Below, piece by piece: positions 12,685-61,900 of a stretch of 64,000 nt of DNA. The translations under genes were made by a program, and so were the position numbers. The notes beneath the pieces are model-generated. The model saw nothing but the letters and a program-made list of their open reading frames with translations, ran no database searches and had not been told where the DNA came from. Origin of the DNA: an uncultured Trueperaceae bacterium (lineage in GTDB: Bacteria; Deinococcota; Deinococci; Deinococcales; Trueperaceae); assembly GCA_937873495.1 (NCBI GenBank), contig CALMXZ010000011.1, positions 532,808 through 596,807 on the forward strand, read 5' to 3'. The first letter of the stretch is position 1. Each line of letters starts with the position of its first letter.

Positions 12685-12753
12685 CCCGGCTATATAGCCG
12701 GCGGCCATATGCCGGCGCCAACCCGGGCCTGACCGCCGGGGCGGTCAACTCGT

Positions 12754-13917
12754 TCACCACCGCACCACACCCGTGGCTGGGCCGGCAGGCGTGTTCATCG
12801 CGGCCAACGCCTCCGGGGCGCACCATAGTTTCTGGTACCGCTTACGAGGCCCAAGTGGCTGAATGATCGCCAACCGCTCGAGCTGGGCGCAGGCCTTGTG
12901 GACGACCTCCGGCGAGACCTGTAGAGCGGCGGCGACCTGTAGCGCGTAGAACACCGGCGAGTCGATCAGGTAAGGCAGTATGCGACGCGCGCTGCTGCCG
13001 TTCCTCGTCCGGCCAAGCAGCCGCGACCAACTGGCAACGAGATCCTCCTGTCTCTGCCTTGCATGCCTCGCATGCGCCACGGCTGCCATCGAACCGCGCG
13101 CGTAGAGTTCCAGCAGCGGCATCGGGTCACCGCGGTGAAATGCACGCAGTGCGGCTGCGAGGTCATGCCGCCAGTAGACGAAGACGGCTGAGATCGGTAT
13201 CGCACCGCCGCTCGTCAGGCCTTTCGCCCGCATCAGACATTGGGCGACCGCGCGCGCCGTGCGTCCGTTTGCCTTCGCGAAGGGACGCCTGGTAACCAGC
13301 TGGCCGTAGACCACGGCTGCTTGAGCCAGTACGGGCAAGTCGTCCCTGGCCATGAACGCGGCCAGGTCGGTAACGAGCGCCCTCGTCCGCTCGTCCCACC
13401 CCTCCTCTACGACAGGCCCGGCCTTGCCCAGCACCGCGCTGTTCAGACGGCGCAGGGAAAGCTCGCCGAGGTCCCTGGCGGCTCCGATCTCCAGCGCAAG
13501 CCTCGTGGCACGCACCGTCGCGACCACCCACGCCGCCATCCTCCAGCGGCCTCTACCCAACTCCGCCAGCCACACCCTCTGAGGCGTGTCATAGATCCGA
13601 GCAAGCCGCGCGCTTGCCATCCCCTCGACCCACGGCGACGTCGTTGCGAACGGCGCTTGCGTCAGAGACATCTCACCGTCGAAGCGCGCGACCTGGATCG
13701 CCGCCCGCTCCAGCCTCGTCGCGGTGGCGCCCAGACCGGCGAATGCCATGTCGGTGACGGGCCGCGGGTAGCGCGTACCTGGGTTCTGGGTGGTCGGGTT
13801 CCGCGTGCTCTGGTTCCGCGAGGTCTGGCCATGCGTGCACAGTTCCTGCGTTCCTCGCGACCCGGGGAGGGTGAGTTCATCTCCAGGACCCTCTGTCTTG
13901 AGCTGAGGTTGTCTCAT
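12754..13917 (-). CDS. Fic-domain-like protein with altered catalytic motif
   Basis: Up to 387 aa. The centre carries RRPFAKANGRTARAVAQCLM, clearly the Fic motif HPFxxGNGRxxR, but the catalytic His is Arg and the Gly before NGR is Ala. An N-terminal helical region (LERAAIQVARFDGEM) and a C-terminal winged-helix-like part (VFYALQVAAALQVSPEVVHKA) are as in Fic proteins fused to a DNA-binding domain. AMPylation activity is therefore doubtful. The N-terminal about 55 residues (many NQSTRNPTTQNPG-like) look low-complexity; the ATG at 13749 (MAFAGLGATATRL) is a likely true start. No clear ribosome site is seen at either. Confidence 0.65.
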   Translation of the reverse strand: MRQPQLKTEGPGDELTLPGSRGTQELCTHGQTSRNQSTRNPTTQNPGTRYPRPVTDMAFAGLGATATRLERAAIQVARFDGEMSLTQAPFATTSPWVEGMASARLARIYDTPQRVWLAELGRGRWRMAAWVVATVRATRLALEIGAARDLGELSLRRLNSAVLGKAGPVVEEGWDERTRALVTDLAAFMARDDLPVLAQAAVVYGQLVTRRPFAKANGRTARAVAQCLMRAKGLTSGGAIPISAVFVYWRHDLAAALRAFHRGDPMPLLELYARGSMAAVAHARHARQRQEDLVASWSRLLGRTRNGSSARRILPYLIDSPVFYALQVAAALQVSPEVVHKACAQLERLAIIQPLGPRKRYQKLWCAPEALAAMNTPAGPATGVVRW

Positions 13918-44557: not shown

Positions 44558-45736
44558 ATGCCTCAACAGCTTTCCCTCGATCACCTACAAGAAGCAGCGC
44601 ATCCTGGTGGCCCAAGCGTGCTCTCTTCTGTAACGCGCCTAGAGCCGGCTGCAGGGCCTCACGCAAGCGTAGCGCCGGCGAAGTACGTGAAGGGTAGTAC
44701 TCCTACCTATATCTACGAAGACAGGTTCATCGACGGTGATAGCGCTCAGACGGTGCTCATAGACAGCAAGTCTTCCATGGCCAACCGCATGGAAGCTGCC
44801 ATCATCGACGCCGTAGACACCGGCCACCCCCTCTTGGCAAAGCTGCCTCGGATCGAAGTTCACTACGACCTGGGTGACTGGAAACGGGACTTCAGCTGCC
44901 TGAGCCTGCCGCACCGCGCTTACGACGCACATATCCGCTCGGGCACGATAGATGGAACACCAACCACTCAATATGGACGGTACATAGCGGCACGCAATTC
45001 TGATCCATCCAACGCACTCGCTATGTTGGACACGAGCTTTGCAACCGTAGCGCTAGGCGGATGGGACTCTAGCCGCCGAGCTCGCCAAGGCCGCTTCCCA
45101 AGCTTGATAGTGGGCGAGATCGTTGGCGTTCTGGCTAACCAAGACTCAACCGAGCCTAGACCTGCAAACCACTCGGGGGCTCGTGTCGACCCAGTGTCCA
45201 TGGGATTCGACCTGACTTCGGCTCAGCTCCTGAAGATCCTGGAGCCGCAGAAGGGCGAATATAGCGACTCGTTCCTCAAGACGAAACAGCTAAAACCATC
45301 ACACCTTGGCCTCGGCGGGATCCCACCCCAAGCGGACGGGCTGGCAGGGATAGCCACCAGGGAGATAATCCGGAGCCACGTCATAAGCTTCGCCCTGATT
45401 CGCAGGTTGCGATTCGGCAAGGGCGCGGAAGGCGATGCCGCGATCAGAGTTCTCGTAATGGCAACCCTCCTGAACGCCATGGCCCGTAGCGACAGCGAAC
45501 TGTACTTGCGTGCCAACTGCCATCTTGCCGAAGCGTCGGCGCCGGTGGTTCGGCTCGACAGGCGGCAAGGAGACACCCTAGAGCTTGCCGCCATCACGAT
45601 CCAACAAGCGGACCTCCTGCTGGAACAGGCATACGGTATCGCTTCCGGATACGGAGTCGAATGGCAGGGCACAACGCTGCATGTCACCGGGAACCCGACC
45701 GTCTTCGGCGCGGCCGCCGACGGCGACGGCAACTGA
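44558..45736 (+). CDS. csb1: type I-G CRISPR backbone protein Csb1 (Cas7-like)
   Basis: 392 aa of the GSU0053/Csb1 family, the Cas7-type backbone that coats the guide in the I-G (I-U) Cascade. Family blocks: YIYEDRFIDGDSAQTVLIDS, SKSSMANRMEAAIIDAVDTG, and PSLIVGEIVGVLANQDSTEP, with an SRRARQGR loop likely to touch RNA. It is the first gene of the operon, with AAGGAG before the ATG, and has a long structured leader. The next gene starts 11 bp after its stop. Confidence 0.9.
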   Translation: MPQQLSLDHLQEAAHPGGPSVLSSVTRLEPAAGPHASVAPAKYVKGSTPTYIYEDRFIDGDSAQTVLIDSKSSMANRMEAAIIDAVDTGHPLLAKLPRIEVHYDLGDWKRDFSCLSLPHRAYDAHIRSGTIDGTPTTQYGRYIAARNSDPSNALAMLDTSFATVALGGWDSSRRARQGRFPSLIVGEIVGVLANQDSTEPRPANHSGARVDPVSMGFDLTSAQLLKILEPQKGEYSDSFLKTKQLKPSHLGLGGIPPQADGLAGIATREIIRSHVISFALIRRLRFGKGAEGDAAIRVLVMATLLNAMARSDSELYLRANCHLAEASAPVVRLDRRQGDTLELAAITIQQADLLLEQAYGIASGYGVEWQGTTLHVTGNPTVFGAAADGDGN

Positions 45737-45746
45737 GAGGTGAAGC

Positions 45747-47339
45747 GTGGGCCTAATCATAACAGCCGAGTTCGCGCTGGGCACCTACCAAGGTAGGAGT
45801 CCAACCGGTGCGCCGGAACCCTTCCCCGAAGTAGACAGGCTGTTCGCGGCATTCACGGCCGCAGCCGGAGCTAGTCCGTACGCCGACATGCACGGATCTG
45901 CACTACGCATTACCGATAGGCATCGGGCTGCACTCGAGTGGATGGAGTCGAACGCTCCGGACAAGATCTCGATGCCGGACTACCGGTTCAATGTGCCTAA
46001 CGTCACCGCGTACAGGGTGACGGGTCTACGGTCGAAAACCACATACGCGTCCCCAGCCTCACGCGATGCGTTAGCAAGAGCAAGCTTGGCTGGTCCGTTG
46101 TACTGGTGCTGGCTGGTGGCTCCCGACCGAGAGATCGTAGGCGCGCTCGAGGAGTTGGCAAGCGAGGTGGCCTACCTGGGCGAGGCGAACTCACCCGTCG
46201 TGGTTCGGGTCAGTGGGGAAGAGATTCCGGCAGGAAACGCTCTCTCCAAAGTGCTCGAAACGGAGCTGTTTCCTATCGGCGCCGTTCCCATCTCTACACC
46301 CGCTCCTGGACGGCTTCGAAAGCTCGAAGCTTCGCATGAATCGCATCTGGCCAAAGGTCGGGGAGAAGACGGACCGCCACCCGCGAGCGAACAGGAGCTT
46401 CAAGCTCCATGGTCGAGCGAAGGCGTCAGGCTTCTCTGGTATAGGCAAGAAGAGCAGCAGGACGCCACCGATGGAGTTCCTTGGATAGGTGCGATAGTCG
46501 TGGAAGCGCAGGCTGCCGAGGAAGGCACGCAGTGGCCACCTCGACCGGAGAACCGGGTGGCCTGGGCCGTGGCCCTGCATAGGGCGCTCGCGAGAGCGTT
46601 GGACCCCGACGCACCCCCGCTGGTGACGGGTCACGGCCCGCCTGACCAGCGACTGCCCGCGAACCGCCTCGCCATCCAGACCATCAGCCGGGAAGATCCA
46701 GTGAGCTGGGATCACAGCGTCGGGGTCGACGGCTCTTTCGTTCTGCTAATACCCCGGGATGCTTCCGCGGAAGACCAAGCGACCGTCATGCGCGGACTCC
46801 AGGCAGTGGCTGGACGCAGCGTCTACATGGGACGGCTAGGCTCTCTTATGTTAGGGAGGGTCCGGTTCATAGAGGCCATCGAGTTCTGGAGATCGCCGGT
46901 GCCAGGTTACAAGCGCTTGTACGTGCCTCGACCCCTGGTAATAGCCGAGACCCGCGCTCAGAACAAGGTGAACGACCGCGCGTGGGGCCTAGAGGACGCC
47001 GCGCTTCTCTCGATAGGCATGGTCTGGCGCGACTTGCTGGAAATCGAGGGTAAGGGCGAGCGGTTCTACCGTGACTTGGTCGAGGCAGCGAGGTCCATGG
47101 CAAGGATTCATAAACCACGACAAGTGGTCGGGCAGGACCTCGTCAAGTTCGTGCATCGCGTGAACCCGTCCAATGTTCTAACTGCCTTCACGGCCTTCTT
47201 CGAGTTCAAGAAGGAAGTCGTGGAGTCACGGGCGCCTGTCGCAATTGGGCAAGCAAGGCACCTTGGCAACGGCCTACTAGTACCCGTAGACCTCCCAGCG
47301 TCTCTCTTCTCCGAGGACGGCGAGTTGTCATGGGTTTAG
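45747..47339 (+). CDS. csb2: type I-G protein Csb2 (Cas5-Cas6 fusion)
   Basis: 530 aa of the GSU0054/Csb2 family. The N-terminal part (LIITAEFALGTYQGRSPTGA, EPFPEVDRLFAAFTAAAG) is Cas5-like; the C-terminal part, with LGRVRFIEAIEFWRSPVPGY and VGQDLVKFVHRVNPSN, corresponds to the Cas6-like domain that processes pre-crRNA. Starts at GTG 45747 with GAGAGGTGAAGC upstream and overlaps cas3 by 10 bp. It should recognise the repeat stem GCTACCG/CGGTAGC, and may also process the crRNA-like RNA upstream. Confidence 0.88.
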   Translation: MGLIITAEFALGTYQGRSPTGAPEPFPEVDRLFAAFTAAAGASPYADMHGSALRITDRHRAALEWMESNAPDKISMPDYRFNVPNVTAYRVTGLRSKTTYASPASRDALARASLAGPLYWCWLVAPDREIVGALEELASEVAYLGEANSPVVVRVSGEEIPAGNALSKVLETELFPIGAVPISTPAPGRLRKLEASHESHLAKGRGEDGPPPASEQELQAPWSSEGVRLLWYRQEEQQDATDGVPWIGAIVVEAQAAEEGTQWPPRPENRVAWAVALHRALARALDPDAPPLVTGHGPPDQRLPANRLAIQTISREDPVSWDHSVGVDGSFVLLIPRDASAEDQATVMRGLQAVAGRSVYMGRLGSLMLGRVRFIEAIEFWRSPVPGYKRLYVPRPLVIAETRAQNKVNDRAWGLEDAALLSIGMVWRDLLEIEGKGERFYRDLVEAARSMARIHKPRQVVGQDLVKFVHRVNPSNVLTAFTAFFEFKKEVVESRAPVAIGQARHLGNGLLVPVDLPASLFSEDGELSWV

Positions 47340-50230
47340 ATGCGTCCGACTTCTCCGAGTTCTTCCACGAGCTGCACGGCCATGAACCGTTCGAATGGCA
47401 GTCGCGCCTTCTGCGCTTACTCGTCGATGAAGGCAAGTGGCCCGTCCGGATAGCGGCACCTACTGGCTCAGGGAAGACAAGCGTCATCGACGTACACCTT
47501 TTCGCCAACGCCCTCGCGCACGAGAGCGGCGCACAGTTGCCGCGCCGGCTTGTCATGACCGTCAATCGACGCAGCCTCATCGACGACCACGCTCAGCACG
47601 CGGCATACGTAGCCAAAGCGCTATCCGGTGCCCTGACCGCGCCGGATTCTCGCCTCCAGACGCTCCACGAAGTCGCGAGACGGTTGAGAGAGCGCTCTGG
47701 GGCATCGGTTGGACTAACCGACGTTGCGCCTGCCATCGTGCAGACGATCCGGGGTGGTATCGCGCTTGACCGGTCCTGGAGCAGTATGCCGGCGGCCGTC
47801 GCCGTACTTTGCATCACTCCCGACATGTGGGGCAGCAGAGTCATGTTCCGGGGCTACGGCACGTCGGTACAGGCTAGACCCATCGAAGCGGCTCTGTTGG
47901 CTGTCGACTCGGTCCTCGTGGTAGACGAAGCGCACCTGAATCAGCAACTCCTACTTACAGCACGTAGAGTCGCTACTCTTCAAGGAGCCGCCCGGGAGGC
48001 GGTTGGACCCCCGGTGCTCCAAGTCGTGGAGACCACCGCTACCCCTGCCGGAGTTCAAGATGAGCGAGCGCAGGAGATCGTCGTTGACGAGAACAGTCTA
48101 GGGGAAGGCGAGCCCGGCCAGCTTCTTCGGCGCAGGCTGGCGTCGCCCAAGCCCATCGAGCTGATCGAGATCATGTCGCCGAGATCGGATCGGAACGAGC
48201 TGACAGCAGTGCTTGCAGCACAGTGCGATAGGCTCGCTCAAATCGAGTCGTTGGCGGCCGTACCGATCGGTTGCGTCGTCAATACAGTGCCGATGGCAAG
48301 AGCGGTAGCAGACGCTTTGCGCACCCAATACGGAGCGGACGCAGTTATAGAGGTGATAGGCGGCCTCAGGCAGTATGACCGCATAGGCCTCAGTAAGTTG
48401 TACCCAAGGACTTTGGGTGACTACGACCAACCAGACGCGGAGCCGACACCGCGTTTCGTGGTCGGGACTCAGGCGCTTGAGGTCGGAATCAACATCGACC
48501 TTGGCGCCCTCGTCACGGAACTTGCCCCCGCAAGCGCATTGGTCCAACGGGCCGGCCGCGTGAACCGGTTCGGTTCCCGCGAGTACGGTCCGGCAGTCGT
48601 CGTAGTGCCTGATCAGACCAATGCTACCGATACTGGACCCTACAAGGCAGACGATTTGGCCAAGGCGCTCTCGTGGTTGCGTACGAGGTCCTCGGATGCT
48701 AATGGACTAGCGCCGCTAGCGCTACGGAAGGACCCTCCCCCTCCCATGGCCGCTAGTAGAACCTTGCTCCAGCGCCTGGAGTGGCACGACGCGGCCCGGC
48801 TTTCCCGAACGTCGGAAGATGTGGCGGCTGCTGACAGGAGGCTGCCCGGCGCCGGAGAGGACCTCACACTTTGGTTGCGGGACGACCTTACAGATCGCGC
48901 GGAGGCATTCGTAGTGGTCCGCGACTACCTGCCCGATAACGTGTCCCACGCAGCGAAGATAGCGGCAGCCATAGCACCCCGCGGCGCCGAACTCTTCTCC
49001 GTTTCGCTCAATAGAGCACGGTCTATCGCAGAGACCCGGCATAAGAACGCGCCCAAGAGTGGCCCGGATTCCGGGCTTCTTGTCTACAGACGCAACCGCC
49101 CCGAGGTCCTCGCTGAGGTGGGTGAGCTGCTCCCAGGCGATTGCTTAGTCGTTCCTCCAGGAACTCAGGTATTAGGCACGGCGAGAGAACAACTTAGGGT
49201 CGGCACCGAAGGGTCGGCACCTAACGATGTCTACGACGAAGTGACGATCCAGGAAGTCAATGCCTCGACCGGCAGCAGCGACTTCTGGCAGTTCCGTGTC
49301 CTACTTCCAGGATTGTCGCCAGAGGAAGCGCTGGAAGATGAGAACTCCAGCTCTCCCCTGCTGAGCGCGCGCGAAGCGATCCTCGCTCTTGTAGACGAGC
49401 AGGGAACGGATGACAGCGAGGGGGTTGGCCCTGGCGACCGAGCGTGGGAAGCCATCAGCGCGTTAGCTGGTTATCTGCGGGGGTCATCAGAGCACATGAA
49501 CGCCTCCGAGCGCCGCGTCGAACTACTAACCGAACTTGCCGCAAGCGTTGAACTCGGCGAACCACCGGAGATCGTGGTCGTGCCGGGGCTTGGCCCCGAC
49601 GAGCCGATATTTGTTCTCGTTCGCCAGCGTGAACTGCCCGAGGACGATAGGCGTAGCGAGCGATCCATGCAGAGGGTGTTCCTCGACGACCACTCGCACG
49701 CTGTTGCCGAGAGGGCACAGCAACTAGGAGTCACCGTAGGGCTGTCCGATGACAGCCTTGCTGCCGTGACCGAGGCCGCGCTAGAACACGATTCCGGCAA
49801 GGAGGCTCCGCGATTCCAGACCTACCTGGCAGCAGGGCGTAGCCGAGACAGGGCCCTGGCGAAGAGCTCGTATCGGATCTCTCGGAAACTGCGTGCGCGA
49901 CTCGGGTTGGTCGGCTGGCGCCATGAGCAGCTCTCGGCCGCTAGGTACTTCGGCAAGGGTCCGGAAGCAAGCGAACTGGTCACCTGGCTCATCGGCACGA
50001 GCCACGGGTATGGGCGTGGCACTTTCGACGCAGACGCAACGCTGCTGCTTCCAGATGGCCAGCGCGAGGTTGGCATGGGAGCTATGGACGCCGCGCTGGA
50101 TCTCTATGACGATGGCGCTTGGGACGAGCTCCTCGAGCGGTTGGTCAGAGAGTACGGACCCTGGGGGATCGCTTACCTGGAGACGATCGTACGAGCAGCG
50201 GACCAGACGGTTTCGGCGGAGGGGCGATGA
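47330..50230 (+). CDS. cas3: Cas3 helicase-nuclease with C-terminal HD domain
   Basis: 966 aa. SF2 helicase: Walker A APTGSGKT at residues 43-50, DEAH at about 199-202 (VVDEAHLNQQ), motif VI in LVQRAGRVNRFG. The HD nuclease is at the C-terminus, LEHDSGKEAPRFQTYL with His820 and Asp821, then WRHEQLSAARYF and GTSHGYGRG. This reversed order (helicase first, HD last) is the hallmark of type I-G/I-U. All key residues are present, so DNA degradation is expected. Start overlaps csb2 and stop overlaps the next start (ATGA). Confidence 0.95.
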   Translation: MGLDASDFSEFFHELHGHEPFEWQSRLLRLLVDEGKWPVRIAAPTGSGKTSVIDVHLFANALAHESGAQLPRRLVMTVNRRSLIDDHAQHAAYVAKALSGALTAPDSRLQTLHEVARRLRERSGASVGLTDVAPAIVQTIRGGIALDRSWSSMPAAVAVLCITPDMWGSRVMFRGYGTSVQARPIEAALLAVDSVLVVDEAHLNQQLLLTARRVATLQGAAREAVGPPVLQVVETTATPAGVQDERAQEIVVDENSLGEGEPGQLLRRRLASPKPIELIEIMSPRSDRNELTAVLAAQCDRLAQIESLAAVPIGCVVNTVPMARAVADALRTQYGADAVIEVIGGLRQYDRIGLSKLYPRTLGDYDQPDAEPTPRFVVGTQALEVGINIDLGALVTELAPASALVQRAGRVNRFGSREYGPAVVVVPDQTNATDTGPYKADDLAKALSWLRTRSSDANGLAPLALRKDPPPPMAASRTLLQRLEWHDAARLSRTSEDVAAADRRLPGAGEDLTLWLRDDLTDRAEAFVVVRDYLPDNVSHAAKIAAAIAPRGAELFSVSLNRARSIAETRHKNAPKSGPDSGLLVYRRNRPEVLAEVGELLPGDCLVVPPGTQVLGTAREQLRVGTEGSAPNDVYDEVTIQEVNASTGSSDFWQFRVLLPGLSPEEALEDENSSSPLLSAREAILALVDEQGTDDSEGVGPGDRAWEAISALAGYLRGSSEHMNASERRVELLTELAASVELGEPPEIVVVPGLGPDEPIFVLVRQRELPEDDRRSERSMQRVFLDDHSHAVAERAQQLGVTVGLSDDSLAAVTEAALEHDSGKEAPRFQTYLAAGRSRDRALAKSSYRISRKLRARLGLVGWRHEQLSAARYFGKGPEASELVTWLIGTSHGYGRGTFDADATLLLPDGQREVGMGAMDAALDLYDDGAWDELLERLVREYGPWGIAYLETIVRAADQTVSAEGR

Positions 50231-51351
50231 GTGAGATTGTTTTGTCTGGAGACCCGAGAAGCTTCCTCAATCACTTCGCGGCCTTCGGGCTCGCCGCAAT
50301 CTTGGAAGAAGGGTTGAGGAGAACGTGCAGGGTGTCGCAACGCTCCGCCAACTCGCTCGTCGTATCTGTAGACAGCGAGACCGAGACGCCCGAGTCGATG
50401 GCGTCAGTTGTCAAGTTGCATGCGGAGCGGCATCTGGATTCGTGGATAATGCGCACTCACAAGCATGGGGACAAGACGTCAGGAACGATGAGCCCTCGCC
50501 TTGCCCAGCTGAAGGAGGTGTCTGAGTGGCGAACGCTGCAAGCCGCTCGATGGGCAGCTTTCGACTCAGCTTTCGAGGCCAAACTCAGTTGTCTTGACCT
50601 CATGTACATGGGCTCTCTTGGCGAGCCGGCGTATTGGTACATCGACAACAACGGCGGTAATCAACCGGACCGCGGTGCGAGCGGTTGGGAGATGAAGACT
50701 CGGAATCGGGGCGAAGAGTTCGTTCAGCATCGACTAGCGGATCTATGCCGTCGCGTGGCCGCCAGAACACCGAAAGGCGTGCTAGACGGCCTTACCTCCA
50801 TCGATCCACAGGATGAAGCCGGCAATAACTCACCAAGTAGTAGGACACCGACGGGGCTATCCGCGCCGGCAGCTACTGACAATGCCCTGGCATGGTGCGC
50901 CCTCTGGGGAATATCGCTGTTCCAGGTGACGCATAGCGCCGCAATCGCTGTCGGAACAGGCAAGGGCAGCGGGCGGCAGTCGGTCACAGCAGGGTTAGTA
51001 CGCGGCCTTCCCCTGCCGGAGTCACTGGCTAGGGCATACGCATTTCTCCCTATCTTTCCGCGTCCTACCCGGCTGGCGCGAATCAAGACGATAGTGGGGA
51101 GTGGCCAATTGGCCCGGGTCGTCATACGGCATGTTCTGAACGCTACAGAACCGCAATGGAGACCTCAAGATCACCAAAAATGGAGCCGACTGTCACAGAG
51201 CTTGAGCGCGCTCCCAGACGAGGCGTGGCTCAAGAGGAAAGGCTGCCCGGCAGCACTTATCGGTTACATAAAGGTGAGCGATAACGTGAACGCCCCAGAG
51301 CCACACGTGACGCGAGGGACGTATCTCATGTTCGGTTCCGACGGACCATGA
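50227..51351 (+). CDS. csb3: type I-G large-subunit-like protein, Csb3 family
   Basis: 374 aa. The N-terminus SGDPRSFLNHFAAFGLAAIL and the blocks PRLAQLKEVSEWRTLQAARW, SLGEPAYWYIDNNGGNQPDR and GLVRGLPLPESLARAYAFLP resemble the Csb3/Cas8-type subunits found in part of the I-G loci in place of the larger Csx17. Size is about half of Csx17, so it is a compact large subunit that would recognise the PAM. The ATG at 50227 is used because it overlaps the cas3 stop; the longer frame upstream lies inside cas3. Csx17 is the alternative name if the profile fits better. Confidence 0.75.
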   Translation: MSEIVLSGDPRSFLNHFAAFGLAAILEEGLRRTCRVSQRSANSLVVSVDSETETPESMASVVKLHAERHLDSWIMRTHKHGDKTSGTMSPRLAQLKEVSEWRTLQAARWAAFDSAFEAKLSCLDLMYMGSLGEPAYWYIDNNGGNQPDRGASGWEMKTRNRGEEFVQHRLADLCRRVAARTPKGVLDGLTSIDPQDEAGNNSPSSRTPTGLSAPAATDNALAWCALWGISLFQVTHSAAIAVGTGKGSGRQSVTAGLVRGLPLPESLARAYAFLPIFPRPTRLARIKTIVGSGQLARVVIRHVLNATEPQWRPQDHQKWSRLSQSLSALPDEAWLKRKGCPAALIGYIKVSDNVNAPEPHVTRGTYLMFGSDGP

Positions 51352-52943
51352 GCGACCGAGCGGAAGATCCCATTCCGATCAGTCTTGTCTCACATTGGAT
51401 GTTCTGCCCCCGCCGAGCATGGCTGGAAGCCGTGGGAGAGAAGACCGACACCGGACAGATGGCCACGGGGGTATCCGCCCATGAGAGAACGCACGATCCC
51501 AGCACCGCTAGGGGCGCCGAGCTACGCGGGGTTGACGTAGGCCACGCCGGATGGGGTGTGACCGGACGTGTCGACACCATCGAGCAAACGGACGCCGGTT
51601 GGATAGTAAGAGAGTACAAGGCGACCCCAGTGAAGCTCACTCCAGAAGTAACTCCGCCCATGCGAACGCAGCTCGCACTGCAAGTCGCGTGCTTGGAGAG
51701 TTCCGGCGCGATCGTCGCAGGGACCGAGGTCTACTTCACGACTCATAACCGGCGTGTCCGGGTTGAGCTCGACCAGACCGACTTTGCAGACGCAGAAGAG
51801 GCTGTCAACGCGACTAGACAGGTGGTCAGTTCACCCACGGCGCCTCCCCCACTCGAGGACAGCCCGAAATGTGCCCACTGCTCTCACGCAGGAGTGTGTT
51901 TGCCGGATGAACGTAAGCTCGCCCCCGTAACTCGCCGCGTACACGCGTCTTCACCCGAGACGCAGATCGTCCACCTAGCCACGCCCGGTTCGCGTGCCAG
52001 CATCAGCCAGGGAAGGTTGGTGGTGAAGAAGGGTGATGAGGCGCTTGGTGAGGTTCCGATCGAACGTGTTCTGGGTATCCAAGTTCACGGCAACGTAGAT
52101 GTGTCTGGTGCCCTCATCCGCGAAGTCCTATGGCGCGGAGGTTCGATCGTCTGGTGCACAGGGGTCGGACGCGTCGTAGGGTGGGCGCGCTCGGGATCAT
52201 CACCCAACGGACTGACACGGGTCCAACAGCATGTAGCATCCGCCGAAGGGCGGCTCGGTCTTGCCAGAGAGTTCATCTCCGCCAAGGTCGCTAATCAGGC
52301 CACCCTTCTCCGACGCTCAGCGGGAAAAACAGAAGTGGTACAGAGGCTGCGAGAGCTTCAAGGCGACATTGCTAACACCGAAACCTGGCAGGAGGTCCTC
52401 GGCGCAGAGGGAGAAGCAGCGTCACGATACTTCGACGCTTTCTCCAGCTTCTTCGGGCCAGACTTCAGCCGCAGCTGGAGCTGGTGTGGACGAGGCTCGC
52501 GTCCAGCGCGCGATCCTGTGAACGCGATGCTCAACTACGCATACGGCATGCTTGCCTCGGACTGCATTCGGGCCGTGATGTCGTGCGGCCTGGACCCTCA
52601 TGCGGGGTTCCTCCACTCCAGCAACAGAAACAAGCCTGCGCTCGCACTCGACCTCATGGAAGAGTTCCGAGCACCAATAGCAGACTCTGTGGTGATCAAC
52701 GCCATAAACAACAAGGAGGTGAAGCCCGATGACTTCGACTCCAGCCTAGGCACGACGCGCCTAAAGGAGAAAGCGAGGCGCGCCGTGATCGCCGGGTATG
52801 AGCGAAGGATTCAGACCGAGTTCAGGCATCCTCTGTTCGAATACTCGGTGACCTGGAGGCGGGCCATCGAGGTGCAGGCACGCCAAGTTCTCGGCGTCCT
52901 CGACGGCACGCAAACCCGATACGCGGGTATCAGAGTCCGATGA
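51348..52943 (+). CDS. cas4-cas1: Cas4-Cas1 fusion (spacer acquisition)
   Basis: 531 aa. Residues 1-190 are Cas4: iron-sulfur cysteines C20 (MFCPRRAW) and C175, C178, C184 (CAHCSHAGVC), with the nuclease block ...VTGRVDTI...WIVREYKAT. Residues about 200-531 are Cas1, with Glu in GAEGEAASRYF, His423 in PHAGFLHSSN and the acidic LDLMEEFR. The fusion is typical of type I-G and selects PAM-containing prespacers. Overlaps the previous and next genes by 4 bp (ATGA). Active-site residues are intact, so adaptation is probably functional, in agreement with the very long array. Confidence 0.95.
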   Translation: MSDRAEDPIPISLVSHWMFCPRRAWLEAVGEKTDTGQMATGVSAHERTHDPSTARGAELRGVDVGHAGWGVTGRVDTIEQTDAGWIVREYKATPVKLTPEVTPPMRTQLALQVACLESSGAIVAGTEVYFTTHNRRVRVELDQTDFADAEEAVNATRQVVSSPTAPPPLEDSPKCAHCSHAGVCLPDERKLAPVTRRVHASSPETQIVHLATPGSRASISQGRLVVKKGDEALGEVPIERVLGIQVHGNVDVSGALIREVLWRGGSIVWCTGVGRVVGWARSGSSPNGLTRVQQHVASAEGRLGLAREFISAKVANQATLLRRSAGKTEVVQRLRELQGDIANTETWQEVLGAEGEAASRYFDAFSSFFGPDFSRSWSWCGRGSRPARDPVNAMLNYAYGMLASDCIRAVMSCGLDPHAGFLHSSNRNKPALALDLMEEFRAPIADSVVINAINNKEVKPDDFDSSLGTTRLKEKARRAVIAGYERRIQTEFRHPLFEYSVTWRRAIEVQARQVLGVLDGTQTRYAGIRVR

Positions 52944-53245
52944 GCGCTGAGGACAGGCGTATGTTCGTCATTGCCTACGACATACCTGATGACGGTCGCC
53001 GGGCACGGGTAGCTAAGACTCTTGAAGGCTACGGTGATCGCCTCCAATACAGCGTCTTCGTAGTGATAGCTGGGCCGGCGAAGCTCGTTAGGCTTCAAGA
53101 TCGCTTAGAGAATCAGATCTTGTCGAAGGAAGACTCCATCGCCGTGTTCGACCTTGGCATACATGAGAAGCAGCGGATGAGCAAACTCGTTACCTTCATC
53201 GGGGTCAAGCGTGAAGTCACACCAGCCGACGTAATCGTGCTCTAA
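52940..53245 (+). CDS. cas2: Cas2
   Basis: 101 aa ferredoxin-fold protein: RMFVIAYDIPDDGRRARVAK, LEGYGDRLQYSVFVVIAGPA. Forms the adaptation complex with Cas1. Ends the cas operon 12 bp before a strong terminator. Confidence 0.95.
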   Translation: MSAEDRRMFVIAYDIPDDGRRARVAKTLEGYGDRLQYSVFVVIAGPAKLVRLQDRLENQILSKEDSIAVFDLGIHEKQRMSKLVTFIGVKREVTPADVIVL

Positions 53246-53256
53246 GCAAACGCTCC

Positions 53257-53305
53257 GCGAGGGCTCCGACGTTACCGAAAACGCAGAGAGCCCTCGCATC
53301 TTTAT
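53257..53305 (+). terminator. terminator of the cas operon
   Basis: GCGAGGGCTC (53257-53266) pairs with GAGCCCTCGC (53288-53297) around a 21-nt loop and is followed by ATCTTTAT. It separates cas genes from the array, so the array must have its own promoter. Confidence 0.75.
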
Positions 53306-53432
53306 CGACTCGTTCCAGACGGGATAACACGATCGGGCAATGTTGGCGAGCGTCACTCGACGCCGCGCCATCGGAATAGGCCTCGCATACCTGCTCTTCT
53401 ATGTCGGCTCAGCTAGAGATAGACTTCAGGCG
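53306..53432 (+). promoter_or_regulatory. CRISPR leader
   Basis: About 127 bp between the cas terminator and the first repeat, with moderate AT content. The array decays only at the far end, so new spacers are added here. TAGAGAT near 53415 may be a -10 box, but no clear -35 is seen. Confidence 0.6.
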
Positions 53433-56400
53433 GTTGCTACCGTTCGTTCGGTAGCCCTTCATTGAGGACCGGGGGTTCCGGCGGCGGCGGCGAGGATGCG
53501 GGCGGCGTGTTGCTACCGTTCGTTCGGTAGCCCTTCATTGAGGAGTTGGGCATTTTGGCCTCTTTCGCGTCGGGGCGGCGGTTGCTACCGTTCGTTCGGT
53601 AGCCCTTCATTGAGGATCGAGGACCGCCAGCGCCTCGACCTGCCGGCGGTCGAGTTGCTACCGTTCGTTCGGTAGCCCTTCATTGAGGACTGTGGGGGCC
53701 GCCCGGGAACGGCAAGACCCACTTGGCCGTTGCTACCGTTCGTTCGGTAGCCCTTCATTGAGGAGACGGCACCAACTGGGTACCCCGCTGGACCGGCCTG
53801 GTTGCTACCGTTCGTTCGGTAGCCCTTCATTGAGGATTGGCCGGCGCGTTCGCCTCGAGGATCGTAGATAAGGTTGCTACCGTTCGTTCGGTAGCCCTTC
53901 ATTGAGGACCGCACCTGCGCAATCACCGAGCAGCGACCGCGAAGGTTGCTACCGTTCGTTCGGTAGCCCTTCATTGAGGACGGCGCATCCCCGTCTACGG
54001 CATCGCGCAGCTGCCGTTGCTACCGTTCGTTCGGTAGCCCTTCATTGAGGAGTCACCGACGGAGCGCCGCTCACGGCCGCCTTCGCGTTGCTACCGTTCG
54101 TTCGGTAGCCCTTCATTGAGGACGCCCCACGGATCGGCTACTGGTTGGCGCCTCGATCGAGTTGCTACCGTTCGTTCGGTAGCCCTTCATTGAGGACTGA
54201 CCGTGAGCGCGGCGACACTCGCGGCATGATCACGTTGCTACCGTTCGTTCGGTAGCCCTTCATTGAGGAATGTGCGACGCCACAGCCGCCGACGCCAAGG
54301 CCGTGTTGCTACCGTTCGTTCGGTAGCCCTTCATTGAGGACGCAGTCGGAGAGCGCCTCGCTGAGCGCCTGGTCGAGTTGCTACCGTTCGTTCGGTAGCC
54401 CTTCATTGAGGAGCCCGGCCGCCGTCCAACACCACCGCAGCCGACCGACGTTGCTACCGTTCGTTCGGTAGCCCTTCATTGAGGACCCCCGACCCCCCAA
54501 GGAGCCCACCATGAGCACGGTTGCTACCGTTCGTTCGGTAGCCCTTCATTGAGGAGACCGATGCGACGCAGGGCGCGACCCGGAAGGTCCACGTTGCTAC
54601 CGTTCGTTCGGTAGCCCTTCATTGAGGACCTTAGGTCATCAGGAGGCAGGCGATGACCCTCTGTTGCTACCGTTCGTTCGGTAGCCCTTCATTGAGGATT
54701 GCGCAGGGCATTGTTGCTCGACTCGTCGAGGGTGCGGGTTGCTACCGTTCGTTCGGTAGCCCTTCATTGAGGAAAGGGCAACACCTGGGGCGCCTGGGCC
54801 GAGGCCACGTTGCTACCGTTCGTTCGGTAGCCCTTCATTGAGGACCGCGGCGGTTGCGAGCGAACCCGCCACCGCCAGGCGTTGCTACCGTTCGTTCGGT
54901 AGCCCTTCATTGAGGAACGGAAGGGACCGGTGATGACGCCGGTCTGTGGAAGTTGCTACCGTTCGTTCGGTAACCCTTCATTGAGGAGCTGGGAATGGGC
55001 CTACACCCCCCTCGACAACCCCGTTGCTACCGTTCGTTCGGTAGCCCTTCATTGAGGAGGGACGGTGGGATCGGGCAAGACGTACCGCATGGTGTCGTTG
55101 CTACCGTTCGTTCGGTAGCCCTTCATTGAGGATTGTCGAGGGCCTTCTCGGTGTCGCCGGACTTGACCGTGTTGCTACCGTTCGTTCGGTAGCCCTTCAT
55201 TGAGGATGAGGTCCTGGCAGGGGCTGCCGAAGGTGATGATGTCCAGTTGCTACCGTTCGTTCGGTAGCCCTTCATTGAGGATCGGGCTCACGCTCGACAC
55301 CCAACTCGGCCAGGAAGTTGCTACCGTTCGTTCGGTAGCCCTTCATTGAGGAGCTGGACTCTGCGCGGGTCCCCCTGGCGTGGGGGTGTTGCTACCGTTC
55401 GTTCGGTAGCCCTTCATTGAGGACGCTCGGCGAGCGCGGAGTAGCACCGCTCCTCCAAGTTGCTACCGTTCGTTCGGTAGCCCTTCATTGAGGAGCCACC
55501 GACCGCGACCACCCCACGCCGGAGGCCCGGGTTGCTACCGTTCGTTCGGTAGCCCTTCATTGAGGATCTTCCTGCGCCGCGGTTAGTTGCTCGTGGGCGT
55601 GGTTGCTACCGTTCGTTCGGTAGCCCTTCATTGAGGAACACCAAGGTACCCGTTATGCAATCGCGTTATGCAGTTGCTACCGTTCGTTCGGTAGCCCTTC
55701 ATTGAGGACTAAAGGAAGGGTCAGCACGGCCCCGGTCTAAGAGGTTGCTACCGTTCGTTCGGTAGCCCTTCATTGAGGAAGTGAGACGAAGCACCAAGGA
55801 GCGAAACGATGCCGTTGCTACCGTTCGTTCGGTAGCCCTTCATTGAGGAGGCACTGGCAGCAGTGCCCCGGCCGCCGGGGATACGGTTGCTACCGTTCGT
55901 TCGGTAGCCCTTCATTGAGGAGCGAGCACGGCTACTCATGGCGTGACGCGACCGACAGGTTGCTACCGTTCGTTCGGTAGCCCTTCATTGAGGACCTGAC
56001 CGGGCCGCGTGCGTGCCAGACGCGCACGTTGCTACCGTTCGTTCGGTAGCCCTTCATTGAGGAACCAACTCATGAGGCGGCTCGTCCTCATCCTCGCCGG
56101 TTGCTACCGTTCGTTCGGTAGCCCTTCATTGAGGAGATGACACCCTCACCGTCAGGTGCGCCGTCCAGGGGTTGCTACCGTTCGTTCGGTAGCCCTTCAT
56201 TGAGGATACTAGTATGGCGCCAAAATGCCACCCCTGCAAGTTGCTACCGTTCGTTCGGTAGCCCTTCATTGAGGACACCGCCGGACTGGTCTACAAATGA
56301 TCCCAACTAGTTGCTACCGTTCGTTCGGTAGCCCTTCATTGAGGAGGGGGTGACTTGCGGCGCTTTGGTACGGCCCGGCAGTTGTTGCTACCGTTCGTTC

Positions 56401-59400
56401 GGTAGCCCTTCATTGAGGACGTTGCGCGAGTGTCGGGCGGCTTATCGCGACATTGTTGCTACCGTTCGTTCGGTAGCCCTTCATTGAGGAATGGCGGCCT
56501 GGGCAGCGCGCTGGACGCCGACCGTGGTTGCTACCGTTCGTTCGGTAGCCCTTCATTGAGGATCGTTCGGATCCAGCGGATCCGTACCGCCCAAGGTTGC
56601 TACCGTTCGTTCGGTAGCCCTTCATTGAGGAGCCACGATGTAGCCGGCCATCGGTTCGGTCATGACGTTGCTACCGTTCGTTCGGTAGCCCTTCATTGAG
56701 GATTCAAGAAGGCTTGAACTCGGCGGTGATGCACTGCCTGGTTGCTACCGTTCGTTCGGTAGCCCTTCATTGAGGATCCGCCCCACAGTCACCGCCGCGG
56801 CGCAGTTGCGCGGTTGCTACCGTTCGTTCGGTAGCCCTTCATTGAGGAGCTCCCTTCGGCGAGGCTCCCGCCAGGCCAGCTTCGGGTTGCTACCGTTCGT
56901 TCGGTAGCCCTTCATTGAGGAGTGGTGTTGGGCGCGGAGCGATCCCGTCTCCCCCGTCGTTGCTACCGTTCGTTCGGTAGCCCTTCATTGAGGATCCGCC
57001 TTGGCAAGGCATATCGTGTTGACGCAAAGTTGCTACCGTTCGTTCGGTAGCCCTTCATTGAGGATTCGGTGGCGATGACCAAGATGCGACGGTCATCCTG
57101 GTTGCTACCGTTCGTTCGGTAGCCCTTCATTGAGGAACTTGACACTAGGATGATCCTGTTTCTAGCGGCGGTTGCTACCGTTCGTTCGGTAGCCCTTCAT
57201 TGAGGAACTGATAATCAAGGGGGAGGGATAGACCCTCCCCCTAGTTGCTACCGTTCGTTCGGTAGCCCTTCATTGAGGAAGCGATTCGTTGGAGCGGAAC
57301 CATTCCATCCGCCATTCAAGTTGCTACCGTTCGTTCGGTAGCCCTTCATTGAGGATGGGATGGATGAGTGGCTGAGGGACGATCTGGAACGTTGCTACCG
57401 TTCGTTCGGTAGCCCTTCATTGAGGAGCGCGTACACACCGCCACAGGCCACCAGACCCACGTTGCTACCGTTCGTTCGGTAGCCCTTCATTGAGGAAGCA
57501 TCACTGCGCCAGCGGTGGCGCCGACAATGCGTGTTGCTACCGTTCGTTCGGTAGCCCTTCATTGAGGAAACCTGGCCGTGAAACGCCGCGCCAACGACTT
57601 CAAGTTGCTACCGTTCGTTCGGTAGCCCTTCATTGAGGATTGGCCGGTGTGAGGCGTTGCGGCAGCGTCTGGATGGTTGCTACCGTTCGTTCGGTAGCCC
57701 TTCATTGAGGAAGGTAGTATAGCATCGACTCGGTTTGCAGTCAATAGTTGCTACCGTTCGTTCGGTAGCCCTTCATTGAGGACCTACGCGGTGTGCGATG
57801 ACGACGGCATAATCCGGTTGCTACCGTTCGTTCGGTAGCCCTTCATTGAGGACGATCCCTTAGCGCACCAACACCGCCAAACCAACAAGGTTGCTACCGT
57901 TCGTTCGGTAGCCCTTCATTGAGGAGTCTTGCCAGATCCCACCATTCCGTATGTGAACGTGACCGCGTTGCTACCGTTCGTTCGGTAGCCCTTCATTGAG
58001 GAGCTACTATGGCGACGGTGACGCCGGGCGATTCCTAGTTGCTACCGTTCGTTCGGTAGCCCTTCATTGAGGAGCTTACCGCCCGCCGGGAGACCGTTCG
58101 CGCGCTTCGGTTGCTACCGTTCGTTCGGTAGCCCTTCATTGAGGAGCAGCACGGTCAGTGAGGACCTTGGGAGTCTCCTGGAGTTGCTACCGTTCGTTCG
58201 GTAGCCCTTCATTGAGGACTCCGCGACGGCACGGCCATGAGGTACGTCGGCGAGTTGCTACCGTTCGTTCGGTAGCCCTTCATTGAGGAGCCGACTTCAA
58301 GGCGAACACGACGCGACCGTGGGAGGTTGCTACCGTTCGTTCGGTAGCCCTTCATTGAGGAACCTCGCGCAGGACGCCTTCCGGTGCCACTCCGTTGTTG
58401 CTACCGTTCGTTCGGTAGCCCTTCATTGAGGATTCGCGTCGATCACACGATGACGGTCGAACTGCCAGGTTGCTACCGTTCGTTCGGTAGCCCTTCATTG
58501 AGGACGCGACCGCATAAAAGCCTGGGAGCTGGTCGGCAAGCGTTGCTACCGTTCGTTCGGTAGCCCTTCATTGAGGACGGCCAGCGCGGCGCGGGCGGAC
58601 GATGCCGAGCGGGCGTTGCTACCGTTCGTTCGGTAGCCCTTCATTGAGGACAGGGTGTGGGGGCCGCCGCCGTCGCTGCATTGGGCAGTTGCTACCGTTC
58701 GTTCGGTAGCCCTTCATTGAGGACAGCGGGAACCGTTCCTCGGGATCCTCGTAGTCGAAGTTGCTACCGTTCGTTCGGTAGCCCTTCATTGAGGATAACG
58801 GGGTTCCCACACCATGCCGCAGCGCCCCGCGTTGCTACCGTTCGTTCGGTAGCCCTTCATTGAGGAGTGCCGTCGCTGGCGACCTTGTAGACGGCGTCGC
58901 CGACGTTGCTACCGTTCGTTCGGTAGCCCTTCATTGAGGAGGGCTGCGGGGGGACTCCGGCTCGACCGGGGCGAGGGTTGCTACCGTTCGTTCGGTAGCC
59001 CTTCATTGAGGATCGGCGTACGTCTGCCCGGCCTCCTGGGCGGCGCGGGTTGCTACCGTTCGTTCGGTAGCCCTTCATTGAGGACTTCTACGCCTATCGG
59101 AAGCAGTACCCGGGCTTCCGAGTTGCTACCGTTCGTTCGGTAGCCCTTCATTGAGGAACGGAGCTGCCGACCGGCTACCGCAAGGTGATCGGCCTCGAGT
59201 TGCTACCGTTCGTTCGGTAGCCCTTCATTGAGGATTGCGTAGTCGCGCCGGTGAGACCGTCACTCGCCGTTGCTACCGTTCGTTCGGTAGCCCTTCATTG
59301 AGGAGCCGAGACTACGACGCCAGGACCAGAGAACGTGATGGTTGCTACCGTTCGTTCGGTAGCCCTTCATTGAGGATTCGCGAACTCGGCGAGTAGCGCG

Positions 59401-61900
59401 GCCTTGACGGCGTCGCGTTGCTACCGTTCGTTCGGTAGCCCTTCATTGAGGACCCCAACAACCTTCTTGGGGTCGAGGGCGGCGGACTGTTGCTACCGTT
59501 CGTTCGGTAGCCCTTCATTGAGGAACGTGGTCGCGTGAGGTTCGGATGGGCCACGTGCCGGTTGCTACCGTTCGTTCGGTAGCCCTTCATTGAGGAACGC
59601 CACGGCGTGGCGTGTCAACACCTAGTGCGGGGGTTGCTACCGTTCGTTCGGTAGCCCTTCATTGAGGATTGATCGTCGTCGTGGCGAGCGTGTTGGCGTC
59701 GAATGTTGCTACCGTTCGTTCGGTAGCCCTTCATTGAGGACCTCCAGCCCTCCCCGGCCGCGATCGGCAGGGGACGAATGTTGCTACCGTTCGTTCGGTA
59801 GCCCTTCATTGAGGAGCCCACGACGAGCGCCGCGCCCTCTGGCGCCGCGACGGGTTGCTACCGTTCGTTCGGTAGCCCTTCATTGAGGAGAGGCGGCTTA
59901 GGGTGCCGAGGCCGATCATTAGCGGCGTTGCTACCGTTCGTTCGGTAGCCCTTCATTGAGGAGCTCAGCCGACGAGATCGAGATCACCAGCACCGCGGTT
60001 GCTACCGTTCGTTCGGTAGCCCTTCATTGAGGAGTGTGCGCGCTCGTCGGCAACGGTGAGGTGAAGATCAGGTTGCTACCGTTCGTTCGGTAGCCCTTCA
60101 TTGAGGAGACCCGACGACCCTTGACGCGCTCTGGGACTCCAAGGTTGCTACCGTTCGTTCGGTAGCCCTTCATTGAGGAACCTCTGCTGTCTGTTTCATG
60201 GCGGCGGAAAGCTCGTTGCTACCGTTCGTTCGGTAGCCCTTCATTGAGGAACCGTCGCTGCTATCCGGCGAGGGCCGCACGGCGCGGGTTGCTACCGTTC
60301 GTTCGGTAGCCCTTCATTGAGGACTCGCCTGGGCGTTCTTCAGCGTGGCCTGCATCCCGTTGCTACCGTTCGTTCGGTAGCCCTTCATTGAGGAATCAAC
60401 TACGGAGGTCCAGGGGATGGATAAGCACAGTTGCTACCGTTCGTTCGGTAGCCCTTCATTGAGGACGAGCGCTCACGCGTGCCCGACGCGAGTCAGCGCG
60501 GGCGTTGCTACCGTTCGTTCGGTAGCCCTTCATTGAGGAGTCGACCCCGTCAACGGCAGCGACAGTGCGGCCGGTACGGTTGCTACCGTTCGTTCGGTAG
60601 CCCTTCATTGAGGACCCTCCGCCCGGGCATGGGCGGCGGCGACAAGCTCGTTGCTACCGTTCGTTCGGTAGCCCTTCATTGAGGAATCAGGCTGTCGAGC
60701 AGGTTGGCGGCCGGCGCGACCAAGTTGCTACCGTTCGTTCGGTAGCCATTCATTGAGGAAGAAGAACGTGCCCCCACACACACGTGCGGGGGGTTGCTAC
60801 CGTTCGTTCGGTAGCCCTTCATTGAGGACAGCCGCCGCCGTCGTCACGCGCGGGCGTGACCTGGTTGCTACCGTTCGTTCGGTAGCCCTTCATTGAGGAA
60901 GTTCGACCGCCACCTGATCGACGCCTGCGGGCTGGACGTTGCTACCGTTCGTTCGGTAGCCCTTCATTGAGGAGACGACCTCACGGCCTCCTGGAGGGAC
61001 TTGCAGGCCGAGTTGCTACCGTTCGGTAGCCCTTCATTGAGGACGGACGCGCCGCCTCGCCCGCCACCGCCACCGTCTCGTTGCGACCGTTCGTTCGGTA
61101 GCCCTTCATTGAGGAGCCAAGTACGTCGGTGGGCGTTGCGGTGCGATCTCCAGGTTGCTACCGTTCGTTCGGTAGCCCTTCATTGAGGAGTGAGCGGCCT
61201 GGAGCCTCTTGGGCAGTTCCGGGTTGCTACCGTTCGTTCGGTAGCCCTTCATTAAGGACAGGGTGCCGTAGTCGTCGGTGTCACGGCCCGCGGCGTTGCT
61301 ACCGTTCGTTCGGTAGCCCTTCATTGAGGACTGACCGACCAGGAGCTCGTCGACAACCACCTGCCCGGCGAGTTGCTGCCGTTCGTTCGGTAGCCCTTCA
61401 TTGAGGACCGTCATGGCTGAGGGGCCGGGGTTGCGCCGCGATCGTTGCTACCGTTCATTCGGTAGCCATTCATTGAGGAGGCTGTGATGCTTGTCCACCA
61501 CACGAGAAAGATGGATGCTACTTCGGTAGTCCTTCATTGAGGACCGGCCTCGACGAGCTCGCCGATGGCGATTGAGACGTTGCCACCGCTGATTCGGTAG
61601 CCCTTCATTGAGGACTCGTCTATGGGGACCTTATCCTCATGCGGATTCCTCGGGTTGCTACCGTTGATTCGGTAGTCTTTTATTGAGGACGCCAGCGGAC
61701 TGTCGCGACGATGCCGACAATCAGGAGTTGCTACCGTCGGTTCGGTAGCCCTTCATTGAGGAGCCGAAGCCCGGAACGCCGGCAGATTCTTCACCCGTTG
61801 TCATCGTCTTTTCGGTAACGCTTAATCGAGAAGAGCCCGACATCCAAACCACCTTCGCCTAACCCTCTGTACTACAGCTGTTCCGGTAGTCCTGTTGAGG
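53433..61900 (+). CRISPR. type I-G CRISPR array, about 118 repeats
   Basis: 36-nt repeat starting GTTGCTACCG and ending CCCTTCATTGAGGA; the 7-bp stem GCTACCG/CGGTAGC closes the loop TTCGTT, and the 3' end ATTGAGGA resembles the usual 8-nt type I tag ATTGAAAC, which sets transcription to the plus strand. Counting by eye gives 112 near-exact repeats from 53433 to 61479 and about six decayed ones to 61900. Spacers are mostly 34-38 nt (range about 33-41). Variants: A for G at 54952, gccatt at 60724 and 61444, a 4-nt TTCG deletion in the loop at 61012, gttgcgacc at 61080, attaagga at 61223, gttgctgcc at 61372. The last repeats (61513, 61579, 61654, 61727, 61797, 61869) are progressively degenerate, as expected for the oldest end. 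Confidence 0.97.

Follow-up and report, generated by a model that had tools for sequence, protein, structure and literature searches.

Background

The nearest described relative of the locus reported here is the type I-G CRISPR (clustered regularly interspaced short palindromic repeats) system of Thioalkalivibrio sulfidiphilus, which has Cas8g1, or Csx17, as its large subunit (structures 8ane and 8b2x; PMC9638904). In that report Cas8g is divided into an N-terminal domain (residues 1–381), a bridge (382–479), and a C-terminal domain (480–720) that the authors call Cas11-like. With no Cas5 at the guide's 5' end, how the protospacer-adjacent motif (PAM) is found and the DNA opened is posed there as an open question, the large subunit is described as flexible and poorly resolved, and three Cas8 variants of differing size are mentioned (PMC9638904). 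A second form, represented by a Cereibacter plasmid locus (L053), has Csb3 as its large subunit (model TIGR04106, Cas8g2 in current NCBI naming).

Here we analyse a window of 64,000 nucleotides from an uncultured Trueperaceae bacterium (GenBank assembly GCA_937873495.1, contig CALMXZ010000011.1), in which six adjoining open reading frames on the plus strand (44558–53245) encode Cas7g, Csb2, Cas3g, a 374-residue protein, a Cas4-Cas1 fusion, and Cas2, in that order. The locus is of type I-G, which is rare among CRISPR systems, and it shares Cas3g, Csb2, Cas7g, and the fold of the front half of Cas8g with the T. sulfidiphilus system, and Csb2, Cas7g, Cas3g, and the Cas4-Cas1 fusion with the Cereibacter locus, from which it differs in the family of the large subunit. 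The best overall explanation, and in our judgement a highly probable one, is a complete type I-G system in which the N-terminal domain is all there is of Cas8g. Loci of this kind are already present in defence-gene libraries, and the new part is the domain-level reading of the large subunit.

The 374-residue large subunit

The protein encoded at 50227–51351 (plus strand) matches PDLC01374, a PADLOC model labelled 'Cas8g, CAS-I-U, effector_UNK', with an E value of 4.5e-74 (247.9 bits), the alignment running from residues 6 to 365 over model positions 2 to 325 of 327. No fitting Pfam family was found, and the Csx17 model TIGR04113, the Csb3 model TIGR04106 (membership of which needs more than 125 bits), and NF049934 (cut-off 65 bits) all gave no match at E≤1. 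An AlphaFold2 model of the protein is of high confidence (pLDDT, the predicted local distance difference test, 90.0; pTM, the predicted template modelling score, 0.92), and its single Foldseek match below 0.001 in the PDB is 8b2x, the type I-G effector. With VIA-align the two superimpose at Z 16.0 over 268 aligned residues (root-mean-square deviation 3.9), model residues 2–373 lying on residues 9–384 of the chain; the runner-up, 7tr6_C from a type I-A complex, has Z 9.1, and all others are at 6.0 or below. As the fold match spans nearly the whole model and a stretch of the chain close to the N-terminal domain as its authors drew it (1–381), the protein is, on its predicted structure, Cas8g without the bridge and the Cas11-like tail. 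The T. sulfidiphilus protein continues into the bridge and the helical part (480–720; PMC9638904), whereas the window protein stops before them. In PADLOC the role of the family is entered as 'UNK' under the name Cas8g, to which the fold adds an assignment to the Cas8g N-terminal domain.

Because a search of the family profile against PDB sequences gave a best E value of only 0.18, the case for homology is made by the fold together with profile comparison. Aligned by hhalign with an alignment of seven Csx17 proteins, the family of the 374-residue protein has a probability of 66.7%, along Csx17 columns 4–372 of 731. A sister family, NF049934, links the two: it has probabilities of 95.5% to the PDLC01374-type family and 95.1% to the front half of Csx17, and in genomes G145 and G296 its model also matches Csx17, at the extreme N-terminus. 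NF049934, together with PDLC01514, occupies the same place in the operon and is set apart by a fusion to Cas3 in one genome, described below.

The preliminary description of this DNA, made from the letters and reading frames, had recognised that the large subunit is short and not a full Csx17, as we also find, and had called it Csb3-like. A diverged Csb3, with all short type I-G large subunits forming one family, would account for the similar size (Csb3 has 288 residues in Cereibacter) and the same place behind cas3, and Csb3 itself may share the fold. That the 374-residue protein gives no match to TIGR04106 even at E≤1 argues against this, as does an hhalign probability of 0.7% between its family and a Csb3 protein scoring 217 bits against TIGR04106, although Csb3 was represented by a single sequence and the negative is therefore weak. 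TIGR04106 likewise found nothing in the window's own genome or in 25 genomes with relatives of the protein, though the control gave no match anywhere either. In a Cas3 tree the Csb3 locus does not fall among the short-Cas8g loci, its branch being long and of unsure placement. On the missing TIGR04106 match and the hhalign result we reject the Csb3 identity, which we regard as very unlikely. The Csb3 label thus does not hold: its authors had named a better match to Csx17 as decisive against it, and fold (8b2x, Z 16.0) and profile comparison (66.7%) both lie nearer the front half of Csx17. Of the profile families the description had put forward, Csb3 and Csx17 gave no match and a Cas8 family, PDLC01374, did; the structure prediction it had proposed bore out the short large subunit, as the front half of Csx17/Cas8g, and not the name.

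Relatives of the protein occur in two of the 111 genomes from its phylum, one of the two being its own genome, and at 28 loci in named genomes, 26 being Actinomycetota by title and two lying in metagenome-assembled genomes called Chloroflexi; none were found among plasmids and viral contigs. We aligned 28 proteins, comprising those of 26 of the 28 named-genome loci, one from a further genome, and that of the window; L023 and L031, where the large-subunit frame is broken, were left out. All 28 are matched by PDLC01374 and are 330–374 residues long, compared with 694–810 for eight Csx17 proteins, and 24 columns are invariant, those of WEMKTRN and of a G two residues further along among them. NF049934 ('type I-G CRISPR-associated protein, Cas3-extension family') matches 21 of the 28 at E≤0.1 (best 1.6e-9) and PDLC01514 matches seven. 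Since the window protein is not among the NF049934 matches, its relation to that family is one of kinship and not of membership. The short cas8g stands behind cas3 in all 30 PDLC01374 loci among the 57 stretches read. In the Cas3 tree the window groups with a genome of the same family (G082; support 99) inside the PDLC01374 clade, and a second genome of the window's family (G100) carries the NF049934 type (L097).

These observations also bear on the view that the gene is a Csx17 that has been broken and truncated, in a locus that is decaying, to which the half-length of the protein relative to Csx17 would lend itself. The similar length and the invariant columns across the 28 proteins speak for a short form that is conserved as such, the start of the gene overlaps cas3 and its stop overlaps cas4-cas1, the other genes are all intact, and in the adjoining array 105 of 114 repeats are identical and the intervals all differ. 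The conservation of the short form contradicts truncation, and we give this view next to no chance.

In a type I-G operon on an Actinomyces oris plasmid (L050) the large subunit is again short but of a third kind, PDLC01103 ('Cas8u2, new large subunit family'). The same operon includes, at 12707–13282, a gene whose annotation is type I-E Cas6/CasE, and no cas1 or cas2 is annotated nearby.

Association of the short Cas8g with Cas3

In one actinomycetotal genome (G202, L068:5095–9312) a single frame of 1405 residues comprises Cas3g (35–999), a charged linker, and an NF049934 domain whose best-matching stretch is 1175–1383. NF049934 matches were present in 16 of 396 Actinomycetota genomes, two of them inside Csx17, and the fusion in this one alone; among 400 genomes of another phylum, six had an NF049934 match and no frame was long enough for a Cas3-Cas8g fusion. 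The csb2 beside the fusion is split into two frames. Searching the literature for Cas3-Cas8 or Cas3-Cse1 fusions turned up work on type I-E: a Cas3-Cse1 fusion is functional both as an engineered protein (PMC3890593) and as one called naturally occurring (PMC9241507). We found no literature in which 'Cas3-extension' is mentioned together with type I-G. In T. sulfidiphilus, Cas3 is reported to co-purify only in the presence of Cas8g and to make target binding stronger (PMC9638904). We take the short Cas8g to be a putative docking and PAM-sensing module that would work together with Cas3.

Cas7 and Cas3 segments in loci with a short Cas8g

Two other proteins of these loci are longer than their counterparts in Csx17 loci, the gain lying mainly at one site in each and the ranges not overlapping those of Csx17 loci. 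Complete Cas7 proteins have a median length of 402 residues (387–414, n=24) and 403 residues (357–441, n=14) in the two short-Cas8g families, compared with 328 (306–343, n=9) in Csx17 loci. Between D211 and G251 (window residues 212–250, encoded at 45191–45307 on the plus strand) the corresponding medians are 50 (40–53, n=24), 39.5 (31–52, n=14), and 15 (8–19, n=9). In Cas3 the site lies between the helicase and the HD domain, from G603 to H788 (residues 604–787, encoded at 49139–49690 on the plus strand), with medians of 131 (112–239, n=27) and 159 (143–179, n=13) against 60 (56–69, n=9) in Csx17 loci; the window has 185. Left out of the Cas7 alignment were L005, L012, L021, L023, and L029, which lack a full cas7, and L003; the fused L068 Cas3 was left out of the segment counts, and partial Cas3 frames below 740 residues were left out of both tree and counts.

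The AlphaFold2 model of the window Cas7 (pLDDT 83.1) superimposes on the solved type I-G Cas7 8ane_A at Z 20.5, with 301 of 316 residues aligned. A sequence search of solved chains found none for this protein, and the type I-G chain is not among the best 50 Foldseek matches of the model, taking first place only in a second comparison. Short helices are predicted with middling confidence within the extra segment, at 221–234, 237–240, and 247–250. We considered a charged, DNA-binding hairpin for this insert and found no support for it, the net charge being between -1 and +3 in the 31 segments (of 47 rows, the window's not among the 31) that could be measured by an anchor pattern.

The longer segments may compensate for the missing tail of Cas8g or may merely reflect common descent. 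According to the latter, one old branch of type I-G has both a short Cas8g and a longer Cas7 and Cas3, and its chances seem to us evenly balanced. The Cas3 tree, the root of which is unknown, is cut cleanly and with full support into the Csx17 side and the rest, so that a single event may be all that lies behind the correlation. Against this, three further loci, in which the large subunit is of another kind or is not in view, also have a longer Cas3 segment (133, 107, and 148 residues), but the tree places them on that same non-Csx17 side; their Cas7 segments (22–56, in an alignment that is unsure) are not clearly longer in each. Compensation in its full form would have the work of Cas11 in the belly of the complex moved to the helical insert of Cas7, repeated with every backbone subunit, and to the pre-HD segment of Cas3, with Cas8g as a PAM-sensing dock for Cas3, covalently joined to it in one lineage, and Cas3 built into the searching complex and not recruited late. 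We put this forward tentatively, as a rather unlikely possibility.

Alternatively, the tail may not have been lost from the system, a Cas11-like small subunit being translated from an internal start in cas8g or cas3, or else encoded elsewhere. Internal small subunits are described for types I-B, I-C, and I-D (PMC9638904), and the longer pre-HD segment of Cas3 would be in keeping with one. Set against this, the fold match takes up residues 2–373 of Cas8g, so that no C-terminal bundle is left over, and no further gene would fit into the operon, although no search for a Cas11 was made elsewhere in the genome; a separate small subunit was not seen even in the system with a full Csx17 (PMC9638904). 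We think a hidden small subunit improbable.

Genes of the locus

The remaining five genes are assigned by family matches far beyond chance, and, as the preliminary description had it, the six genes form a compact and complete type I-G set. Four of the five junctions are overlaps, three of them of 4 bases, and the remaining one is a gap of 10 bases. The first gene (44558–45736, 392 residues) encodes the backbone subunit Cas7g, or Csb1 (PF09617, 2.2e-32, 112.8 bits against a cut-off of 25; TIGR02570, 44.5 against 38; and the structural match to 8ane_A above). It is followed by csb2 (45747–47339, 530 residues), which encodes a predicted Cas5-Cas6 fusion for CRISPR RNA (crRNA) processing (TIGR02165, 1.7e-61, 209 bits against 45) with His470 and His505 present in all 25 aligned rows. 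The Cereibacter Csb2 (L053, 7541–9739), at 732 residues, is longer by at least about 160 residues than all others measured.

The helicase-nuclease Cas3g (47330–50230, 966 residues; TIGR02621, 3.5e-194, 648.1 bits against 400) carries its HD domain at the C-terminus (cas3_HD, residues 785–893), as previously proposed. The proposal that the visible active-site residues are intact also agrees with our data: K49, D199, E200, H788, H820, D821, H865, and H892, to which we ascribe catalytic roles, are identical in all 49 aligned rows. Within the phylum Cas3g above cut-off is present in only four of 111 genomes. In one genome of the same order (G050) the whole cas3 matches that of a Thermus thermophilus plasmid at 96%.

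The product of cas4-cas1 (51348–52943, 531 residues) can be aligned over its full length with 7mi4, a solved Cas4/Cas1 fusion (2.4e-75), confirming the fusion that had been predicted, and exceeds the cut-offs of both TIGR00287 (cas1, 1.5e-77) and TIGR00372 (cas4, 1.3e-24); the Cas4g-Cas1g model NF049935 matches at 4.2e-137, yet with 457.9 bits it stays below its cut-off of 560. This is the one Cas1 match in its genome. The last gene, cas2 (52940–53245, 101 residues), matches TIGR01573 (1.2e-12) and the Cas2g model PDLC01756 (7.9e-31). All six genes are on the plus strand. In a Nocardia macrotermitis locus (L019, 1231–3236 and 4489–10908) cas4-cas1 and cas2 are instead on the opposite strand, apart from the interference genes. 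The gene order also differs from that of Csx17 loci, being cas7-csb2-cas3-cas8g in the window and cas3-csx17-cas7-csb2 in the latter.

CRISPR array and spacers

The extent given previously was correct for the six genes and left out an array at 53433–61762 (plus strand), with 114 repeats of 36 nucleotides and 113 intervals, which is separated from cas2 by a probable leader (53246–53432). Allowing up to six substitutions in repeat detection, 105 repeats are identical and nine are variants, located at 54952 in one case and beyond 60700 in the other eight; since the variants gather at the far end, the young end of the array faces cas2. All 113 intervals are different, 111 of them being 33–41 nucleotides long and two of 99 and 106 nucleotides, the former containing a decayed piece of repeat. 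The repeat folds into a stem of 7 base pairs (-14.3 kcal/mol, z -4.1). For the type I-G enzyme already described, cleavage 4 nucleotides after such a stem is reported, with an 8-nucleotide handle as the result (PMC9638904). Because 13 nucleotides follow the stem here, a handle of that length would need a cut 5 nucleotides after it.

Most of the array (7,961 bases) was compared with 50,697 phage records, of which two, from gut phages, gave matches of 94% over 34–35 bases. Spacer 25 (55207–55245) resembles a phage cytosine methyltransferase region with four mismatches in 39, and we take the matched region to be the catalytic PCQ motif. With four mismatches over the whole spacer, the gut-phage matches appear to reflect conserved coding sequence and not the source of the spacer. 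Among 111 genomes of the phylum, with at most two candidates scored per genome, matches were found in eight, the window's own included. Those to spacer 4 have four to seven mismatches and fall in what is presumably a helicase loader gene. Spacer 69 (58362–58396) matches the organism's own chromosome (G000:C12:264111–264150, L108) in 34 of 35 bases, preceded by the triplet AGG, within a frame that we take for a DhaK/FakA-type kinase gene; it may be self-targeting, or its source may lie in a mobile relative. Patterns from spacers 2, 5, and 7 of the 113 had no match in the viral contigs. The flanks of the candidate protospacers disagree and have no motif in common, and there was no reliable protospacer from which the TTN PAM of type I-G could be read.

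Discussion

The locus is a real, complete, and probably active type I-G system, and we regard its Cas8g as the N-terminal domain alone. The earlier expectation that interference and adaptation should both be functional is consistent with the intact residues and with the length and polarity of the array. Several observations weigh against our reading. The hhalign probability to Csx17 is just 66.7%, and the Cas3 fusion is known from one genome, in the sister family NF049934 and not in PDLC01374 itself. The near-perfect self-match of spacer 69 would be risky in an active system unless its AGG flank is no PAM. Neither a PAM nor a perfectly matching protospacer was found in the phages, the 111 genomes of the phylum, or the viral contigs, and for that reason PAM sensing by the short Cas8g is something that we only infer. 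In the literature searched we found no published statement of a Cas8g consisting of the front half only, with matching changes in Cas7 and Cas3, although a domain comparison of this sort may already be given in Supplementary Figure S9 of PMC9638904.

A plausible course of events is that Csb2 would cut the precursor crRNA 5 nucleotides after the repeat stem, leave an 8-nucleotide handle, and stay on the 3' hairpin, the guide being held by a row of Cas7 subunits. The short Cas8g would sit on the first of these, sensing the PAM and docking Cas3, which may be in the complex from the start and share in the opening of the DNA before unwinding and cutting it with its helicase and C-terminal HD domain. 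Because the short Cas8g supplies no Cas11-like domain, the belly of the complex would be either empty or served by the extra segments of Cas7 and Cas3; in type I-E of Escherichia coli Cas11 is dispensable (PMC12235044). New spacers would be added by Cas4-Cas1 and Cas2 at the cas2 side of the array.

A natural Cas8g of half the usual size, together with a sister that is naturally fused to Cas3, makes it possible to ask with a smaller complex how type I-G effectors find the PAM and open the DNA. Should the short protein be enough, recognition does without the Cas11-like tail; the locus is a natural test of which part of Cas8g is really required.

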